Assembly (NCBI RefSeq): GCF_006517175.1
Contig: NZ_CP041186.1
Location: 6,723,074-6,787,073 of the forward strand
Source of the DNA: Persicimonas caeni
GTDB taxonomy: Bacteria > Myxococcota_A > Bradymonadia > Bradymonadales > Bradymonadaceae
DNA: 64,000 nucleotides
Direction: 5' to 3'
Each line of letters starts with the position of its first letter. Positions within the stretch are counted from its first letter, which is position 1. Position numbers and translations under genes: made by a program. Below the pieces are notes generated by a model, which had not been told where the DNA came from, did not search any database, and saw only the letters and a list, made by a program, of their open reading frames with translations. Positions 3,397 to 39,800 of this stretch are shown here, piece by piece.

Positions 3397-3732
3397 ATGA
3401 GCGACGAGACGAATCCTTCTGGAATGACCGTGGCCGAAGACGACACCCTGCCGATGGGCGTGGAGGTCTCCAAGGTCGACCTTCTAGCCACGGTCGTCGA
3501 CGCGGAATGGAAACGCCCGGCGGGGCATGTGCGCACTGAAGGCGCGCCGGCCGAAGCCTACTGGTGCGAACACCAAGGCTGCCGGCTGCGCTTCGAGCGG
3601 ACCGGGCGAATCTGGCAGGGCTTTCTCGACATGCTCGACGCCGGCGAAACCCTCGAGACGGGGGCTTCCGAGAATATCGGAAAGGTCGCCCGCGAGCTCA
3701 AAAAGCTCGTCGAGCAATGCCGCGTCTCCTGA
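3397..3732 (+). CDS. Hypothetical small acidic protein
   Basis: A 111-residue protein (from ATG with GAGGTG about ten bases upstream; an in-frame GTG at 3355 is an alternative start). The first ~30 residues are acidic and Thr/Ser-rich. The rest holds 'AYWCEHQGCRLRFERTGRIWQGFLDML', a Cys-x4-Cys element in a compact domain, and a C-terminal helix with another Cys. I do not recognise the family. It is convergent with the reductase gene on the other strand. Confidence 0.55.
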   Translation: MSDETNPSGMTVAEDDTLPMGVEVSKVDLLATVVDAEWKRPAGHVRTEGAPAEAYWCEHQGCRLRFERTGRIWQGFLDMLDAGETLETGASENIGKVARELKKLVEQCRVS

Positions 3733-16772: not shown

Positions 16773-16938
16773 TCCTAGCCCGGGGCCGGTCGCGGTCACG
16801 GAGCCGGTATCCGGGAGCCGGCTGGCCTCCCCAACCAAAACATGGCATATTCGTCGGCACGTACCCGACAACTGAACTGTCCCCGGGAGGGGGACCCCGC
16901 TGGCGGCATGCGAGCGGAGCAATGCGAATGGAGACGTG

Positions 16939-17679
16939 ATGCACGAAGCTAAGTTCGATATTGGTCTCAAAGCGCTGTTCAACCGTGGTAAGAACCGAGT
17001 CCAGAACATCGAGGTGGCCCAGCCCAGCGGCCGCGAGATGATCGGGATGGCGTACAACCTGCTCGACCAGGAGTTCGCGCCCTACGATGCGGCGGTCGCC
17101 GCCGTGCAGAAGGAGGGCGAGGAGGCCGCGCGTGCGGCCGAGGAAGTCGCGCTCGCCGAGGTCGACACCGAGGAGGCCTTCGCCCACCTGCACGCGACCG
17201 GCAACGCGCGCCTGTACGAGCTCAAGGCCGACCCGAACGAGGACGCCGACCTGTACGAGCGGCGCATGAGCCGTGGGATGCCGTTGAATCCGTCGGAATT
17301 CTCTCACTTGGGCGTCGACCGTACCTCGGCGGCGATGGCCACGGCGATCGAATTCATGACGGGTGAATTTCCCGACGGCCATGCCGCGCTCGAGCGCGCC
17401 CGGGAGGCGCATGCCAACCTGAAGGCCAAGCTCGAAGCCGCCGATTCCGAGGAGGCCGAGCGCGTGGCCGCGATGCAGGCGCTGTTCGACGCGCGCACGA
17501 GCGCCAAACGCGCCTACTCGGCGGCGCGCAAGCTCGTCGACGCGGCGTTGTCGCTGGACGGTTCGGAAGAGCGCATCTCGCAGCTGATGCCGCCGCTGTC
17601 GTCGATCTATGACTCGGCGACCCCCTCGACGGACGAGCCCGTTGTTCCTGACGAGCCGGTCGAGCCGGTGGAGGCGTAA
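16939..17679 (+). CDS. Hypothetical Ala/Glu-rich helical protein
   Basis: 246 residues. Ribosome site GGAG five bases before the ATG (a GTG at 16936 is an alternative). Sequence is mostly predicted helix with long Ala/Glu/Lys/Arg heptad-like stretches (~50-80 and ~145-200), consistent with coiled coils. The tail 'PSTDEPVVPDEPVEPVEA' is an acidic Pro/Val repeat. No signal peptide and no recognised family. It ends right before the hairpin array at 17709, which probably terminates its transcription. Confidence 0.6.
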   Translation: MHEAKFDIGLKALFNRGKNRVQNIEVAQPSGREMIGMAYNLLDQEFAPYDAAVAAVQKEGEEAARAAEEVALAEVDTEEAFAHLHATGNARLYELKADPNEDADLYERRMSRGMPLNPSEFSHLGVDRTSAAMATAIEFMTGEFPDGHAALERAREAHANLKAKLEAADSEEAERVAAMQALFDARTSAKRAYSAARKLVDAALSLDGSEERISQLMPPLSSIYDSATPSTDEPVVPDEPVEPVEA

Positions 17680-17708
17680 GCGCGGAGTTTCGCCACACGA
17701 GCCTCGAG

Positions 17709-18050
17709 AACGCCAACCCCGACCATGGGGTTGGCGTTTTTTCTTGCCAGAACGCCAACCAATGCTGCTAGGTTGGCGTTTTTTCTTGCTGGAACGCCAA
17801 CCAAGACCGATGGGTTGGAGTTTTTTCTTGCTAGAACGCCAACCAAGGCCGTTGGGTTGGCGATTCTTCTTGCTGGAACGCCAGCCCAAGCCCCTTGGCT
17901 GCCGTTCTTTGGGGGCGAGTGCTGCAACCAAGGTCGTTGGGTTGGCGTTCTCGCTGGCCAAAACCGCAACGCGACTCGTTTGGGTTGGCGTTTTTGCTTG
18001 CGAGAACGCCAGCCCAAGGCCTTTGGCTGGCCTTCTGTCAGCGAGAGTGC
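17709..18050 (+). terminator. Tandem array of about eight terminator-like hairpins (42-bp period)
   Basis: Units begin at 17709, 17751, 17793, 17835 and 17877 at an exact 42-bp spacing, with three more degenerate units to about 18050. Each has AACGCCAACC, a 6-12 base loop, GGTTGGCGTT and then a T-rich run (TTTTTTCTTGC). Unit 1 has a perfect 12-bp stem with a 6-base loop and unit 2 a perfect 10-bp stem; later units carry single mismatches. The T-runs lie on the plus side, so they would stop transcripts from the gene ending at 17679. The array fills the gap between two convergent genes. Confidence 0.85.
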
Positions 18051-18071: not shown

Positions 18072-19826
18072 CTACTCCAGGTGGTGATAGTCGAGCTTCA
18101 GCTCCTCTTCGAGCGCCTCTTGCACCGCCTCGGGGATCTCGGGCACCTCGCGGGTCCACAGCTCCATGTGGCCGTCGTCGCTGCGTCCGTACGGGATATT
18201 GACCTTCCAGTCGTCGGCTTCGTCGGGGTGGTCCTCGCGGTATTGCGCGCCGCGTGATTCCTCGCGCATCAGCGCGCCGCGAAAGATGGCCTCGGCGCCG
18301 ACGAGCATGAAGCGCAGGTTGACCGCCCACTGGAAGCTGTCGGAGCCGGGGCCGCCGTCGACGCTGAGGTCGCCGGCCTTTTCGATGATCTGCGACAGCT
18401 CCGAGAGCCCGTCTTCCAGGTCCTCCTGCGTGCGCAGGATGCCCGCCTTGTCCCACAACAAGCGCCTCAGCGCGGCGACTAGATCCTGCGGGCGATGCTC
18501 GCCGCTGCGGTCGGCGAGATCGTCGAGCTCGTCGGTGTAGCGGGCGATAACGGCGTCGTCGAGGGAGGGGTTGGGTGACTCATTGGGTGAGGCCTCGTCG
18601 GAGAGTGCGTCGGCGAGGTGGGCGCCGCAGAGTTGGCCGAAGACGACGGTCTCGCACAGGGAGTTGCCGCCCAGGCGGTTGGCCCCGTGCAGCCCCGACG
18701 TCGCCTCGCCGACGGCGTATAGCCCGTCGAGGCTCGACTGGCCGGTGGTGAAGTCGACGCAGACGCCGCCCATGGCGTAGTGGGCGGTGGGGGCGACCTG
18801 CATCGGGTCTTCGGCGATATCGATGCCGAGGTCCTGGAAGCGCTCGTAGACCGACGGGAGACGCTCCTGCAAGAAGTCGCGGTCGCGGTGGGAGATGTCG
18901 AGCAGCACGCCGCCGGCGTCGGTGCCGCGGCCCTGGCGGATCTCGCGGGCGTTGGCGCGGGCGACGACGTCGCGGGCGGCGAGCTCCATCTCGTCGGGAG
19001 CGTACTCCTCCATGAACCGGTCGCCCTCGGCGTTGAACAGGTGGCCGCCTTCGCCGCGCACCGCCTCGGTCACAAGCTCACCGCGGCGGTCCTCGGGCTC
19101 GACCATCCCGGTGGGATGAAACTGGATGAACTCCATGTCGCGAAGGTGCGCGCCCGCTCGGTAAGCCAGCCCGACCGCGTCGGCGGTGTTCTCGTCGGGG
19201 CGCGAGGTGCTGCGGTCGTACAACGCGGTGCACCCGCCGGCGGCGATGACCACGGCGCGGGCGCCGATGGCCACGTACTCCCCCGAGTCGATGTCGAAGC
19301 CGACCGCCCCGCAGGCGCGCCCGTCGTCGGTGGCGACGTGGGTGATGCAGACGTTCTCCAGATACGGCACGTCGAGCTGCCGGGCGCGCCGCACCAGGGT
19401 CTCGAGGATGGCCGCGCCGGTGCGGTCGCCCACAAAGCACGTGCGCCGGTAGGTCTGCGCGCCGAAGTAGCGCTGGTTGATCTTGCCGTTGTCGGTGCGC
19501 GCAAACCCCGCGCCCCACTCGTCGAGCTCGCAGACCCGCTCGGGCGCCCGCTTGGCGAGCAACTCCACGGCGGTCGGGTCGCACACGTAGTGGCCCTCGC
19601 GGATGGTATCGGCCGCATGCACCTCCCACCGATCCTCCTCGTCGAGGTTCCCCAGCGACGCATTGATCCCACCCGCCGCCCAACTCGTATGCGCATCGCC
19701 GTGGTCGCGCTTGCCGAGCACCAGGCACTCGACGCCCGCCCCGGCGAGCTCGATGGCCGTACGCAAGCCGGCGGCGCCGGCGCCGATGATCAGAACGGTG
19801 GTGTGTTGTCTGTGGGTCTTTGGCAT
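18072..19826 (-). CDS. SDH/fumarate reductase-type flavoprotein, orphan
   Basis: 584 residues from an ATG with GGAG upstream. N-terminal FAD-binding Rossmann motif 'VLIIGAGAAGLRTAIELA'. 'DAHTSWAAGGINASLGN' contains the His that anchors FAD covalently in SdhA/FrdA proteins, which L-aspartate oxidases lack. Active-site motifs 'IQFHPTGM', 'HYAMGGV' and 'GLHGANRLGGNSL' are present, with a C-terminal helical domain from ~430. The family interconverts succinate and fumarate, but no iron-sulfur (SdhB) or membrane-anchor gene is adjacent. L-aspartate oxidase is a less likely alternative. It converges on the terminator-hairpin array. Confidence 0.85.
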   Translation of the reverse strand: MPKTHRQHTTVLIIGAGAAGLRTAIELAGAGVECLVLGKRDHGDAHTSWAAGGINASLGNLDEEDRWEVHAADTIREGHYVCDPTAVELLAKRAPERVCELDEWGAGFARTDNGKINQRYFGAQTYRRTCFVGDRTGAAILETLVRRARQLDVPYLENVCITHVATDDGRACGAVGFDIDSGEYVAIGARAVVIAAGGCTALYDRSTSRPDENTADAVGLAYRAGAHLRDMEFIQFHPTGMVEPEDRRGELVTEAVRGEGGHLFNAEGDRFMEEYAPDEMELAARDVVARANAREIRQGRGTDAGGVLLDISHRDRDFLQERLPSVYERFQDLGIDIAEDPMQVAPTAHYAMGGVCVDFTTGQSSLDGLYAVGEATSGLHGANRLGGNSLCETVVFGQLCGAHLADALSDEASPNESPNPSLDDAVIARYTDELDDLADRSGEHRPQDLVAALRRLLWDKAGILRTQEDLEDGLSELSQIIEKAGDLSVDGGPGSDSFQWAVNLRFMLVGAEAIFRGALMREESRGAQYREDHPDEADDWKVNIPYGRSDDGHMELWTREVPEIPEAVQEALEEELKLDYHHLE

Positions 19827-19894
19827 GTCGGTCTCCGCGTGTCGAAACTTCACTGACGAAACCTAACCACAGCCTGTCCGTACGCCTTGCGGTG

Positions 19895-20054
19895 GAACGG
19901 CGAACTCACCACGGGGACACAGGGGGGCACGGGGAAAGGCCATGTTGTTTTATCCCCCGTGTCCCCGTGCTCCCCGTGGTGAACCCTCTCGTCGCAGGGC
20001 AGAACGGCGAACTCACCACGGGGACACAGGGGGCACGGAGAAAGGCCCTGTTGT
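19895..20054 (+). repeat. ~105-bp palindromic tandem repeat, left part of array
   Basis: Begins with CGAACTCACCACGGGGACAC and runs to a matching inverted arm (CCCCCGTGTCCCCGTGCTCC) ending CGTGGTGAACCC, then a GTCGCAGGGCAGAACGG linker. One full unit and half of a second are seen before the IS insertion; the array resumes at 21688. No gene lies between 19827 and the IS. Confidence 0.8.
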
Positions 20055-20090
20055 CGGTATGTGTCAAGATAGTTGTCGCGTCTGAATTAT

Positions 20091-21140
20091 CTACGTCTCT
20101 TGTAAATTGAGCGGCGCAAGCCGCACCTCTTCGGGGCGCGTCCATCCTCGCGGCCTTCGACTCCAGCGTGCGGGATTCTTTTGGCGCGCCTGTTCATAGA
20201 GCTTTTGGCGTCTTTGTAGCAGCTCGACGTCTTCGCCCGCGTGGCGCTGCTCGGGGGTCACCCAGCCGATCCCGCTGTGATAGTGCTCGGTGTTGTACCA
20301 GCGGACAAACGCCTCGACCCACTCAGACCATTCATGCACGCCGTCGAGCGGCTTTTTGGGGTAGCCAGGCCGGTATTTGAGCGTGCGAAAGCTCGATTCG
20401 CAGTGAGGGTTGTCGTTGGAGACGCCCGGGCGGCTAAACGAAGCGGCCACCTCCAGGCGCTCCAGCGTCGCCAGAAGCGTCGAGCCCTTCATCGCAGCCC
20501 CGTTGTCGGCGTGGATGCAAAGTCCGCTCGCCTCGACCTGTTCGGCGAGGATCGTCTTTTCAATGAGGCGGCTCGACAGCTCCATCGATTCTTGGTCTTC
20601 GACGCTAAAGCCGACGATCTTGCGGCTGAACAAGTCCATGATCCAGTAAAGGTAGACAAACCGGCCGCGTACCTGGGTGGGCAAGTATGTGATATCCCAC
20701 ACCCAGACCTGGCCGGGGCTGGCGGCCACTAATTCGGGCTTCGGCCTGGGCTTCGGCGGCCGGCTTGGCTGGCGGTGGGTCATCATCTTCTCTTCGCGCA
20801 ACACGCGGTAAAATGTCGACTCGCTGGCGACATACTCGCCCCGGTCGGCCAGGCTGCATACGATCTGCCGGGGGCTCACATCACAGAATTCACGACCTGT
20901 GGCGATGGCGACCACCTGTGCTCGCTCCTCGTCGGTGAGCGCGTGCGCACACCGACTGTGGGGTCCCTGGCGAGCGTCCTCGGCCTGCGGGTCTTTTCGC
21001 CACCGCTGTATGGTGCGCTCGCTGATGCCCAGGGTCCGACAGGCCTGGGCCTGACGCGCGCCGTGGGAGACCGCCTCTGCGATCATGTCGAGGATGACTT
21101 GTCGCTCTTGCCGATCATGGGAGCGTCCTCGTCCCCCCAC
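20091..21140 (-). CDS. IS3-family transposase OrfB (DDE integrase domain)
   Basis: 349 residues in the -1 frame relative to OrfA. An N-terminal helix-turn-helix (QACRTLGISERTIQRWRKD) precedes the rve-type catalytic core: first Asp in 'VWVWDITYLPT', second in 'CIHADNGAAMKGS', Glu in 'DNPHCESSFRTLKYRPGYP', i.e. the DD(35)E set. It is expressed as an OrfAB fusion through frameshifting; its own GTG at the start lacks a good ribosome site. The frame is intact, so the element may be active. Confidence 0.92.
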   Translation of the reverse strand: MGGRGRSHDRQERQVILDMIAEAVSHGARQAQACRTLGISERTIQRWRKDPQAEDARQGPHSRCAHALTDEERAQVVAIATGREFCDVSPRQIVCSLADRGEYVASESTFYRVLREEKMMTHRQPSRPPKPRPKPELVAASPGQVWVWDITYLPTQVRGRFVYLYWIMDLFSRKIVGFSVEDQESMELSSRLIEKTILAEQVEASGLCIHADNGAAMKGSTLLATLERLEVAASFSRPGVSNDNPHCESSFRTLKYRPGYPKKPLDGVHEWSEWVEAFVRWYNTEHYHSGIGWVTPEQRHAGEDVELLQRRQKLYEQARQKNPARWSRRPRGWTRPEEVRLAPLNLQET

Positions 21141-21613
21141 AACCGGCGCGCCTTTTTTGAGAGCACCAACAAGGCGGCCGTCTCGGCCAGCGCGGCCTCC
21201 TTTCGGCGAAGCTCGCTTTCGAGTTCGCGCTTGTCCCGTTGGGCCTGGCGCAGCTTCTGGGTGGCCTCCTTCTTGGCCCTGGTGCGTCCATCAAGCCCCT
21301 CGTACATCTGCGCTCTCCAGCGTCGAAGGTCGCTTGTATGCACTCCTTCCTCGCGCAGGAAAGCGCCAAACTCCTTGCCCTCGAGCGCCTCGGCGGCCAT
21401 CACAAGACGCAGCTTTTCGGCCGAAGAGCGTCTCTCGGGTGCCGACTCTGGCTTTGCCTCAGCACGCAAGGCACCATCGAGCGCCGCCTTTCTCCACCGC
21501 CAAAGCGTCGTCTTGCCCACGCCGCTCAGCTCGGCCAGGCTCTCCGGGCTGATCTTTTCGTCGAGCATCCGTCGAACAAGACGCTCTTTTAGCTCTTTAG
21601 GATATGGACTCAT
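21083..21613 (-). CDS. IS3-family transposase OrfA (HTH and leucine-zipper part)
   Basis: 176 residues from an ATG with GGAG upstream. Helix-turn-helix in 'SPESLAELSGVGKTTLWRWRKAA', then a second DNA-binding-like helix pair and a long Arg/Glu/Leu heptad region (KLRQAQRDKRELESELRRKEAALAETAALLVL) that would mediate oligomerisation. Overlaps OrfB by 58 nt. Confidence 0.9.
   Translation of the reverse strand: MSPYPKELKERLVRRMLDEKISPESLAELSGVGKTTLWRWRKAALDGALRAEAKPESAPERRSSAEKLRLVMAAEALEGKEFGAFLREEGVHTSDLRRWRAQMYEGLDGRTRAKKEATQKLRQAQRDKRELESELRRKEAALAETAALLVLSKKARRLWGDEDAPMIGKSDKSSST
21152..21158 (-). promoter_or_regulatory. Programmed -1 frameshift site (A6G) of the IS3 transposase
   Basis: On the minus strand the heptamer A-AAA-AAG sits in the OrfA frame as TCA-AAA-AAG. 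This is the canonical IS3-family slippery site. A -1 slip here joins OrfA to the OrfB frame (continuing GAPVVGGRGRSHDRQ), giving the full transposase. Confidence 0.85.
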
Positions 21614-21687
21614 CTCGGATCTCCTTGTTGCCCCTTCGTTCCATGAAACTAACAATCGAAGAGGCGACAACTATCCTGACACCTGGG

Positions 21688-21945
21688 GTTGTTTGGTCCC
21701 CCGTGTCCCCGTGCTCCTCGTGGTGAACCCTCTCGTCGCAGGGCAGAACGGCGTACTCACCACGGGGACACAGGGGGCACGGAGAAAGGCCCTGTTGTTT
21801 GGTCCCCCGTGTCCCCGTGCTCCTCGTGGTGAACCCTCTCGTCGCAGGGCAGAACGGCGAACTCACCACGGGGACACAGGGGGGCACGGAGAAAGGCCAT
21901 GTTGTTTTATCCCCCGTGTCCCCGTGCTCCCCGTGGTGAACCCTC
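21688..21945 (+). repeat. ~105-bp palindromic tandem repeat, right part of array
   Basis: Resumes the second unit after the IS and carries about two more complete units, differing by a few substitutions (CTCCTCG versus CTCCCCG; TTTGGT versus TTTTAT). Ends at GGTGAACCCTCTC before a unique ~100-bp stretch leading to the glyoxalase gene. Confidence 0.8.
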
Positions 21946-22044
21946 TCTTGCAAAGCCAAGCACCTTGGAAAAGCCCCCGTCCGTATGCATATTGGCGCCG
22001 ACTGATAGAAGAAGCGACCAACCACAATTGATTGGAGGAAACCG

Positions 22045-26403: not shown

Positions 26404-26499
26404 CGAAGGGAGGCGAGGGCAAGATGCCCGCGCACCGAAGGGAGACGAGGGCAAGATGCCCCCGCACCGAAGGGGGGCGAGGGCAAGATGCCCCCGCAC
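26404..26499 (+). repeat. 32-bp hairpin repeat, three units right of the group II intron
   Basis: Units at 26404, 26436 and 26468, each ending GCCC[CG]CGCAC, with one to three substitutions among them. They stop 3 bp before the stop codon of the minus-strand DUF429-like gene. As a minus-strand transcript they would form a row of GGGCA/TGCCC hairpins directly after that gene. Confidence 0.85.
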
Positions 26500-26502
26500 C
26501 GA

Positions 26503-36828: not shown

Positions 36829-39800
36829 ATGACCGGCCACCTGAATACGATACTCGAACACCGCGCACGTGGTCTCCTCCACGTCGCCTTGTGGCTGTTG
36901 TTGGTGGCGACCCTCGCCGCGTGCTCGTCGGACGAGCCCGAGAAGGAGGCGCGCGATACCGGCGTGACGGTCGACGCCGATGATGAGGCGGATGCTCCGG
37001 TGGAGGACGTCGGAGTGCCCGACGTGACGGATGTGACAGACGTGACAGATGCGACGGACGCGACGGACGTTACCGACGCAACGGACGCAGCAGATGCAAC
37101 GGACGTGACGGATGCGACTGACGCGACGGATGCGACGGATGCGACAGACGTGACGGATGCGACGGATGCGACAGACGTGACGGATGCGACTGACGTGACG
37201 GATGCGACTGACGTGACGGATGCGACTGACGTGACGGATGCGACAGACGTGACGGACGCAACCGATGCAACGGACGCAACCGACGCAGAAGATAGCGGCG
37301 ACGTCGACCTGATCTGCCCGGACGCCGACGGCGACGGGTTCCAGGCCACCGCCTGTGGGGGCGATGACTGCGACGATACCGACGCGGCCGTGCATCCGGG
37401 GGCGACGGAGGTCTGTGGCAACGGCGTCGACGACGATTGCGATGCGACCACCGCGGATTTGTTCGACGCCGACTCGGACGGAACCAACTGTGCGGTTGAC
37501 TGCGATGATTCGGACGCGTCGGTTTATCCCGGTGCGACCGAAGTTTGCGGCAATGGCGTCGATGACGATTGCGATGCGACCACGGCGGATCTGTTCGACG
37601 CGGACTCGGACGGGACGACGTGCGACGTGGACTGCGACGACAGCAACGCGTCGGTCTATCCCGGAGCGGCCGAAGTGTGCGGAAACGGCGTCGACGACGA
37701 CTGTGACGCGACCACGGCGGATCTGTTCGACGCGGACTCGGACGGGGTGACGTGCGACGTGGACTGCGATGATTCGGACGCCTCAGTTTATCCCGGAGCG
37801 ACCGAAGTGTGCGCGAACGGCGTCGACGACGACTGCGACGCGAGCACCGTCGACGTGTACGACAGCGACTCCGATGGCGCGACGTGCGACGTCGACTGCA
37901 ATGACAGCAACGCGTCGGTTTATCCCGGCGCGACAGAAGACTGCAGCAACGGCGTCGATGACGACTGTAACGGCCAGGTCGACGCGAACGACGCCGATTG
38001 TCAGACCGTCGCCGAGGTCTGTGACAACGGGATCGATGACGACTCGGACGGCCTCGTCGATTGCGCCGATTCGCAATGCTCCGCGCACGCGGCGTGTGCG
38101 GGGAACCTGTGCAGCAACGCCATTTCGATCTCGGGCTCGGCGAGCTACACGATCGACACGAGTGTGTTGACCGACGACTACGCGGGCTCGTGCGGCACGA
38201 CGGGCGGCCCGGAGGTCGTCTTCGAGTTGACACTCTCCGGGGACTCCGACGTGCATATCGACACGATGGCCTCCGACTACGACACGTACCTGTACGTGCG
38301 CGAGACGACCTGTGACACCGGTCTGGAGAGCGCGTGCAACGAAGACGTCAATATCGCCGAGTCGTGGTCGCGCATCGCCATGCACGCGCTCGCTCCGGGC
38401 ACTTATTACGTGTTCGCGGACACGTCGGGCATCGGTGGGGGGACGCTGGCGTTCGACGTGGTCGTCTCGTCGGTCTGGTCGCACTCGCCGGGCATCGTCG
38501 AAAATGACCCGCTCGTGCGCATGCCGGGCACGCAGCCGGCCGACGGCGTCAGCGTCGAGGGGCCTGGGCGTTGCCTGAACTGTCACGACGACTACGATCC
38601 GGTCGCCTCGCCGGGGCATATGTGGAAGGGCTCGATGATGGCGCAGTCGGCGCGCGACCCCATCTTCTGGGCGGCGATGACCGTGGCTGCCCAGGACGCC
38701 ATCTGGGCGCTGGGCGACGCCAACGCGACCGACCTGTGCGAGCGCTGCCACTTCCCCAGCGGCTGGATCGAGGGGCGGAGCGACCCGACGAACGCCTCGC
38801 AGATGACGGGCAGCGACTACGACGGGGTGCACTGTGACTTCTGTCACCAGATGTACGACCCGTTCTTCGAGGATACCTTCAACGGCACCCGCGAGGGCAA
38901 CGACTGGGTGGGCTACTGGGACGAGACCGACCTGAGCAGCACGCCGTCGAGCACACGTGCGCTGGACACCTATATTGCCGACGACACGCTCAACGACCTT
39001 GTGGCGTACTTCAACGGCGGCCCGTTTTACGACGCGAACAACCAGCCGATGAGTCCGAACTATACGGAGAACGCCGGCGGACAATACTTCGCGAGCAGCG
39101 GAGGGGAGAAGCGCGGTCCGATGGCCGACGACACCGCCTCGCACAGCACGCTGTATAGCCGATATCACAAGAGCAAATACATGTGTGGGACGTGTCACGA
39201 CGTGTCGAACTCGGTGCTGCACAACCTCTCATACGCCGGGACCACGCCGGGGGACGGCACTACGGTGCTGCCGTCGGAGAAGGACAACGCCGCGAGCTAC
39301 TTCCACGTCGAGCGCACCTTCTCGGAGTTCATGTTGTCGGCCTACGGTCAGCAGGGCGGGTCGCCGGGGACGGGGGCGTACGCGCCGAGCAACTTCGACA
39401 CCGAGCGTCCCAATGACGTGATCGCCACGTGTCAGAACTGCCATATGCCGATCGTGACCGGGAAGGGCGCCGACAAGAATAGCGCGCCGCTTCGGCCCGA
39501 CGACAGCATCGAGCACCCCAAGACGGGCGTGCCGCAGCACGACCTGACCGGCGGCAATATGTTGGTGCCCACGATTCTGGCGAGTACGCTGCAGGGTTCG
39601 CCGAATTACGACGCCACCAACGCCAGCCTGCTCGGGCAGGGGCCGTCGGTGCTCACGCTCGACTTCACGCAGGGCCTGCAGCTCGACGCGACAGCCTTGC
39701 TCGACGCGGCGAGCCGCGCGCAACAGACGCTGCAGCGAGCGGCGACGATCGAGAACGTCGCCTACGACGCGGCCACCGGTCAGCTCGACTTCCGCATCGA

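Follow-up and report, generated by a model that had tools for sequence, protein, structure and literature searches.

A tandem array beside an acidic helical protein gene in Persicimonas caeni, and gene-array pairs with a constant repeat period

The window array and the genes flanking it

The window, i.e., the whole stretch of 64,000 nucleotides analyzed here, is a part of contig NZ_CP041186.1 of Persicimonas caeni, whose genome comprises a single contig of 8,047,206 bp. We found a tandem array of eight units at positions 17708-18045 of the window. The genes around the array are convergent, one being located at 16936-17679 on the plus strand (gene X) and the other at 18072-19853 on the minus strand. 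All gene calls in this study were our own simple codon-score calls. The features of the locus are as follows.

16936-17679, plus strand: gene X, GTG start, 247 aa, a member of subfamily A and the protein partner of the array (gene call, protein searches, structure model)
17708-18045, no strand assigned: array of eight units of 41-44 bp (unit alignment, Tandem Repeats Finder)
17708-17749, plus strand: unit 1, perfect 13-bp stem followed by T6, likely the intrinsic terminator of X (-24.3 kcal/mol, z -5.7)
17750-17791, plus strand: unit 2, perfect 11-bp stem followed by T6 (-16.6 kcal/mol, z -3.8)
17792-17833, plus strand: unit 3, stem with one mismatch followed by a T-run (z -1.3)
17834-17875, plus strand: unit 4, stem retained, T-run broken (ATTCTTC; folding, sequence)
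17876-17918, plus strand: unit 5 (43 bp), variant arms, no T-run, similar to unit 8 (folding, unit alignment)
17919-17960, plus strand: unit 6, decayed left arm, no T-run (folding, sequence)
17961-18001, plus strand: unit 7 (41 bp), broken stem, T5 (folding, sequence)
18002-18045, plus strand: unit 8 (44 bp), stem, no T-run, with the broken start of a ninth unit next to it (folding, sequence)
18072-19853, minus strand: convergent neighbor, FAD_binding_2/Succ_DH_flav_C protein (domain matches)

The units start at 17708, 17750, 17792, 17834, 17876, 17919, 17961, and 18002. The first five starts are spaced by exactly 42 bp, and the units from the fifth on are 43, 42, 41, and 44 bp in length. The array begins 28 bp past the end of gene X and stops 26 bp short of the end of the convergent gene, of which we regard the product as an L-aspartate oxidase-like FAD-dependent oxidoreductase. 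Tandem Repeats Finder recovered the array independently with a period of 42 and a score of 233. An earlier note on this DNA described about eight tandem units between convergent genes, the first five being spaced by exactly 42 bp; the unit alignment and Tandem Repeats Finder agree with the former and the unit start positions with the latter. The protein partner of the array was absent from that note.

The 371-nt array region yielded folding z scores of -8.5 (plus strand) and -7.6 (minus strand) against shuffled sequences, and a terminator scan detected two sites versus 1.1 (sd 1.2) in shuffles. The earlier note took every unit to be shaped as an intrinsic terminator, which turned out not to be the case. 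Units 1-4 are palindromic, and a stem combined with a T-run (at least five Ts) was found only in units 1-3 of the eight; the T-run is absent from units 4, 5, 6, and 8, and T5 of unit 7 follows a broken stem. It is plausible that units 1-3 terminate the transcript of gene X, and the earlier interpretation stands to this extent, but the terminator shape does not define the array. Likewise, the view that the loops vary while the stems persist was right only in part, as no stem covariation beyond shuffles was detected when the 16 units of the window array and the second array described below were aligned (paired, 80.5% vs 81.2%; covariation, 0.075 vs 0.073). A search of the window array against Rfam gave four matches with E values of 0.04-0.6, all far under the gathering scores.

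We rejected two readings of the window array. It is not a CRISPR array, since the units are contiguous, alike over most of their length, and not separated by unrelated spacers. A chance origin is incompatible with the result of Tandem Repeats Finder, the folding z scores, and the family-wide association with a particular period (see below).

A second array in P. caeni and possibly related arrays in a sister genus

A genome search for further arrays of the window unit retrieved one in P. caeni. The DNA search placed this second array near 4,396,609-4,396,897 (E 3e-38, 73% identity), and the unit model extended it to 4,396,592-4,396,965. When the 16-unit covariance model was run over the P. caeni genome, only the window array and the second array were detected at E < 0.01. 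The second array lies between divergent genes. One of these we read, from its protein, as B-family DNA polymerase-like, and the array precedes the inferred start of this gene by approximately 60 bp. As the flanking genes diverge, no gene end needs a terminator at this position.

Three genomes (G013, G016, and G018) represent a sister genus within the family. In them, the unit model and the DNA search together identified 17, 15, and 18 matching array pieces, respectively, with a period of 42/43 bp. The arrays fetched from the sister genus contained 4-20 unit matches each, and many array positions were common to all three species. A possible homology of the window array to the sister-genus arrays is suggested by covariance-model matches with a best E value of 4.8e-6. 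Regarding the gene contexts of 34 fetched sister-genus arrays (all but L280, and counted apart from the two P. caeni arrays of the window unit), 14 were tandem, 11 convergent, and 6 divergent, with 3 undetermined. Among 165 distinct sister-genus units, the words CTCAG, CTTA, and GTTCTC were conserved, and neither palindromic covariation nor a T-run in the consensus was found. Most of the sister-genus arrays stand apart from any detectable X-family gene. No homology was apparent when the window unit consensus was compared with the arrays beside the sister-genus X genes, the scores of 14-16 being below the 99% null of 24.

The possibility of a coding repeat was rejected, since overlap with called genes did not exceed 60 bases in any of the 34 sister-genus array rows; the array at L268 has a 45-base overlap with a weak ORF call. 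The exact-arm pattern matched at least 116 stretches in genome contigs and 41 in viral contigs, the matches listed being mostly coding repeats; among those listed, only L029 and L092 resembled hairpin tandems, and their periods are different. The latter two (L029, 761-955; L092, 2498) are unrelated hairpin tandems of Bacteroidota that share the AACGCCAACC arm and have periods of 37 and 23, respectively. Besides the arrays, CRISPR-like repeats (GCCCCGCACACGCGGGGAAC) occur at 3505-3593 and 6920-7071 of L334, a locus of the sister-genus genome G013.

The X family and the period of the adjoining arrays

The protein encoded by gene X is acidic (pI 4.6) and all-helical in its structure model, and carries the C-terminal tail DEPVEPVEA. 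It had no match in Pfam up to E 1. No library among NCBIfam, Pfam, and PADLOC names the X family, and no recognizable nuclease or recombinase match was obtained from them; the NCBIfam entry PQLLE_fam gave matches far under its cut-off to a single A member (E 0.003) and to six of the 32 B members, at best with an E value of 2.7e-4. With the X protein as the query, 6 of 115 genomes were found to contain relatives, and six of the matches were in P. caeni. A 15-row profile retrieved relatives from 6 of 25 genomes, P. caeni accounting for 10 matches. X relatives were present at five sister-genus loci, each with an array downstream. According to Tandem Repeats Finder, 15 of the 21 loci from the X search have a 42/43-bp array immediately behind the gene, and the unit sequences of these arrays are quite different. 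Two random control stretches of 400 kb each from the P. caeni genome contained few arrays of the 42/43-bp type, three of which adjoin genes of 250-282 aa ending, like X, in PVEA or PVGA. The pattern [DE]PVEA-stop had 14 matches in the P. caeni genome versus one for the reversed pattern. All of the 14 are at ORF ends (two are fragments), and 10 of them, including five of the nine new ones, lie no farther than 1.4 kb from a 41-43-bp array. These matches define subfamilies A (containing X), B, and C and one gene, D; C and D join A and B solely on the basis of the C-terminal tail, to which C adds its array. Altogether, about two dozen X-family members, fragments included, were detected in P. caeni, and the paralogues occupy many places in the genome. 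A search of 282 Myxococcota genomes revealed family B in 29 of them.

Subfamilies A and B belong to one protein family, as judged by sequence similarity and shared helical topology. The A and B profiles matched with an HHalign probability of 91.6 and an E value of 8e-7, on which coiled-coil bias may have had an effect. The AF2 models of X (pLDDT 90.7) and a B member (pLDDT 93.4) share the same helix order, in which two long helices are connected by a short helical stretch, and both have an acidic tail modeled with low confidence. The mean pI values of subfamilies A, B, and C are 4.8, 5.3, and 4.6, respectively, and no known DNA-binding domain was found in their proteins. Fold searches of the X-family models retrieved no match in PDB or BFVD at E <= 0.001; VIA Z scores of up to 10 were recorded against colicin coiled coils, a chemoreceptor, and BAR domains, possibly reflecting a mere common helical-bundle arrangement.

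Repeats of other kinds also occur in the window and around X-family genes. A second tandem family, REP-like and with units of about 29-36 bp around GGGCATCTTGCCCTCG, is represented by its exact core at 22 of the 468 loci that were fetched. Its sites are at 26404-26502 of the window (where the array only appears related to this family, as judged by eye), L291 (2514-2788), L389 (1395-1482), L365, L366, and L375, and some copies adjoin X-family genes. The region 19900-22000 of the window contains an IS3-like two-frame transposase pair (20091-21140 and 21083-21670). On one side of the pair, a 106-bp repeat (21688-21947) bears ACACAGGGGGGCACGG words, and a related word is present at 19917; this transposase also adjoins the X paralogue at L357. 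At 37026-37972, large coding repeats (18/27/45 bp, 132 bp) lie within one ORF of 1223 aa, which encodes an aspartate-rich repeat protein.

The association between the X family and the period was assessed by autocorrelation on flanks. At 49 of the 97 family loci, a tandem period of 41-43 bp was located no farther than 800 bp away, versus 15 of 764 control genes (10 of 507 in P. caeni and 5 of 257 in the sister genus), the control genes including neighbors of family arrays. Orthologues from the three sister species are among the 97 loci, as are four loci that we had discovered via their arrays (the window, L381, L311, and L386). The set consists of the family loci other than L405, L413, L423, and L448, which are B matches that are weak or lie at a contig end, and about a dozen unfetched B matches. 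After the removal of the four array-found loci, Fisher's p is approximately 7e-36, a value to be read with the fact that the loci are not independent of each other, many being orthologues. The period threshold of 0.62 was fixed when the test was written and not tuned later; the final count used lags of 41-43 and 800 bp, and an earlier control test lags of 40-44 and 700 bp. Among the 61 family flanks with a strong period between 25 and 70 bp, 48 peaked at 41 (12), 42 (27), or 43 (9), and no other period in this range was represented by more than four flanks. The control genes displayed a range of periods rather than one.

The side of the array depends on the subfamily. In P. caeni, the period was found downstream at all eight full-length A genes and all three C genes, and at six of 11 B genes, all six upstream. 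In the sister genus, 10 of 13 A loci (downstream) and six of 14 B loci have the period, as compared with none of four A and two of 16 B loci in other genera of Bradymonadia. Overall, the A array is downstream wherever present (18/18), beginning 11-339 bp after the gene, and the B array is mostly upstream in P. caeni and the sister genus. Among 24 B loci in other families of Myxococcota, which were found by protein similarity, 12 have the period with unrelated units and the side is variable (eight downstream, four upstream). The period was also seen at two of three fragments but not at gene D (0/1). In the flank period test, 48 of the 97 family loci had no array.

Features kept among the arrays and their interpretation

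The units of 36 family arrays fell into 27 unrelated groups by local similarity. Hairpins (z < -1.5) were found in seven of the 36 family arrays versus 19 of 49 control tandem arrays, showing no enrichment in the family. Several units of P. caeni fold well. A run of five or more T or A residues was found in two of the 36 family units, and phased A-tracts, judged by eye, were dropped as a common feature for this reason. What is kept is the period, the protein partner, and, within a clade, the side; neither the hairpin nor the terminator is kept, and the terminator look is particular to the window array. The counts show the window array to be the cis part of a two-part module of a gene and an array. 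The protein part is an acidic all-helical family, in which A contains X, B is its relative, and C is grouped by the tail and array only, and the DNA part is a tandem array with a period held at 41-43 bp and a sequence free to differ between loci.

The array could be an ordinary terminator expanded by slippage, its closeness to X being incidental. Units 1-3 are indeed terminator-shaped and next to the end of X, and single hairpins with AACGCC..GGCGTT arms and T-runs are found between genes in relatives. As in intrinsic (Rho-independent) terminators, a stem and a T-run are combined in these three units, but five of the eight depart from this form and the family at large lacks both stem and T-run. 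The same array family is also located upstream of a gene, and the association with the X family (49 of 97 versus 15 of 764) speaks against an incidental closeness. We thus consider this origin highly improbable, and the terminator as the full explanation is rejected by the second array at divergent genes, the incomplete units, and the family without T-runs.

Neutral minisatellites, in which a local property favors tandem duplication of about 42 bp with no function, are improbable as well. Unit-level indels, the absence of the array at half of the loci, and the free unit sequence are as expected for such repeats. On the other hand, a neutral process should yield a range of periods as the controls do, in contrast to the 48 of 61 strong flanks at 41-43 bp, and the side is fixed within clades.

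The gene and the array can be copied as one block. Two C genes separated by approximately 60 kb (L424 and L425) share a block of about 1.65 kb with 94-95% identity, which contains the array, the gene, and 266 bp upstream; the flanks are different, and the two arrays differ by a whole unit. The suggestion of slippage in the earlier note is supported by this indel at the level of the unit. For 17 loci of subfamily A, array similarity is correlated with protein similarity on the same strand (Mantel r 0.87, 0/5000 permutations) and not on the other strand (r -0.31), much of the correlation coming from orthologues. In G013, the gene copy of a duplicated X has no array. The P. caeni locus L382 (532438) retains an X gene remnant, in which the start and the tail were joined after the middle was lost, with 42/43-bp arrays still downstream.

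It is conceivable, albeit unlikely, that the array is a substrate for copying and moving the gene block, with the protein as a helper or cargo. The block with new flanks, the paralogues at many places, and the related arrays dispersed in the sister genus fit such a spreading or recombination element. Nevertheless, the protein has no recognizable nuclease or recombinase family match, many array positions are common to the three sister species, and movement does not need a constant period. REP/BIME elements are intergenic repeat clusters found partly beside a dedicated gene and partly dispersed, and the X-family arrays are likewise partly beside their own gene and partly dispersed. In contrast to the REP/BIME-RAYT system, X is not a Y1 (HUH) transposase (no Pfam match up to E 1), the period is held at 41-43 bp with the sequence free, and Y1 numbers do not track arrays (26 matches in P. 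caeni versus two weak ones in the array-rich genome G013). A gene that is followed by DNA with palindromes and copied together with it resembles an integron cassette (gene and attC), but the modules differ in that many tandem units stand behind one gene.

Similarly unlikely is an RNA module, in which the array is transcribed, as the 3' portion of the X mRNA or, in subfamily B, as a leader, and the repeats of 41-43 nt serve as an RNA ligand, sponge, or antitoxin-like partner. In type III toxin-antitoxin systems, a protein gene is accompanied by tandem repeats of about 35-48 bp, to which the window repeats of 41-44 bp beside gene X are comparable. The short distance between the A genes and their arrays, the relative strand kept between array and gene, and the well-folding units in P. 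caeni are consistent with this idea. However, the sister-genus units lack covariation, hairpins are no commoner than in control arrays, and joint copying of gene and array also explains the strand coupling. Furthermore, the array side differs between A and B, and arrays occur in all gene contexts. The array of type III systems (ToxIN/AbiQ kind) is upstream of the toxin in contrast to the downstream position behind full-length A genes, and the all-helical X has no ToxN/AbiQ match in NCBIfam, Pfam, and PADLOC.

We tentatively favor a module with a helically phased array working at the DNA level, in which X may be a part of the complex reading or using the array. The DNA-level mechanism is suggested by the constancy of the period, the absence of conserved RNA structure, and the mixed positions of the arrays in tandem, convergent, and divergent contexts. 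The array would act as DNA, given that 41-43 bp amounts to four turns of B-DNA (the four-turn phasing per unit is an arithmetical observation) and that the arrays retain no conserved RNA structure or T-run. It may repeatedly present one face of the helix to a putative binding factor, with X as an adaptor or scaffold acting together with this factor. The factor is hypothetical, as the proteins of all three subfamilies are acidic and have no known DNA-binding domain, and X itself appears too acidic for an obvious DNA binder. Other observations that speak against this reading are the 48 family loci with no array in the flank test, the variable side of the B array in other families of Myxococcota, and the distance of most sister-genus arrays from any detectable X-family gene. 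Units 1-3 of the window array would double as the terminator of the X transcript, and the copy number of units may shift via slippage or unequal exchange. Plasmid iterons and partition centromeres are phased tandem sites next to a gene, as the X-family arrays would be, but X is acidic with no DNA-binding domain found, and the unit sequence is unconstrained between paralogues.

We could not match the pairing of gene and array with any known system, and a literature search of open-access papers retrieved no description of such arrays in these bacteria. A wider version of the favored reading is possible but doubtful: across Myxococcota, an acidic helical protein and a DNA array would form two-part loci that are read by spacing (four helical turns per unit) instead of sequence. 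As a part of that version, and with the same doubt applying to the two jointly, the loci may constitute a DNA ruler or scaffold system, each paralogue having its own freely evolving array.

DNA elements are normally recognized by sequence or hairpin. Here, the repeat length keeps to a span of three bases in arrays of unrelated sequence, which come from different families of one phylum and adjoin one protein family that no library searched has a name for. Should the array instead be an RNA module or a spreading element, the loci would still represent a class of gene and repeat for which we found no description. If spacing is what is read, the marking of a chromosomal locus in this manner would be new.
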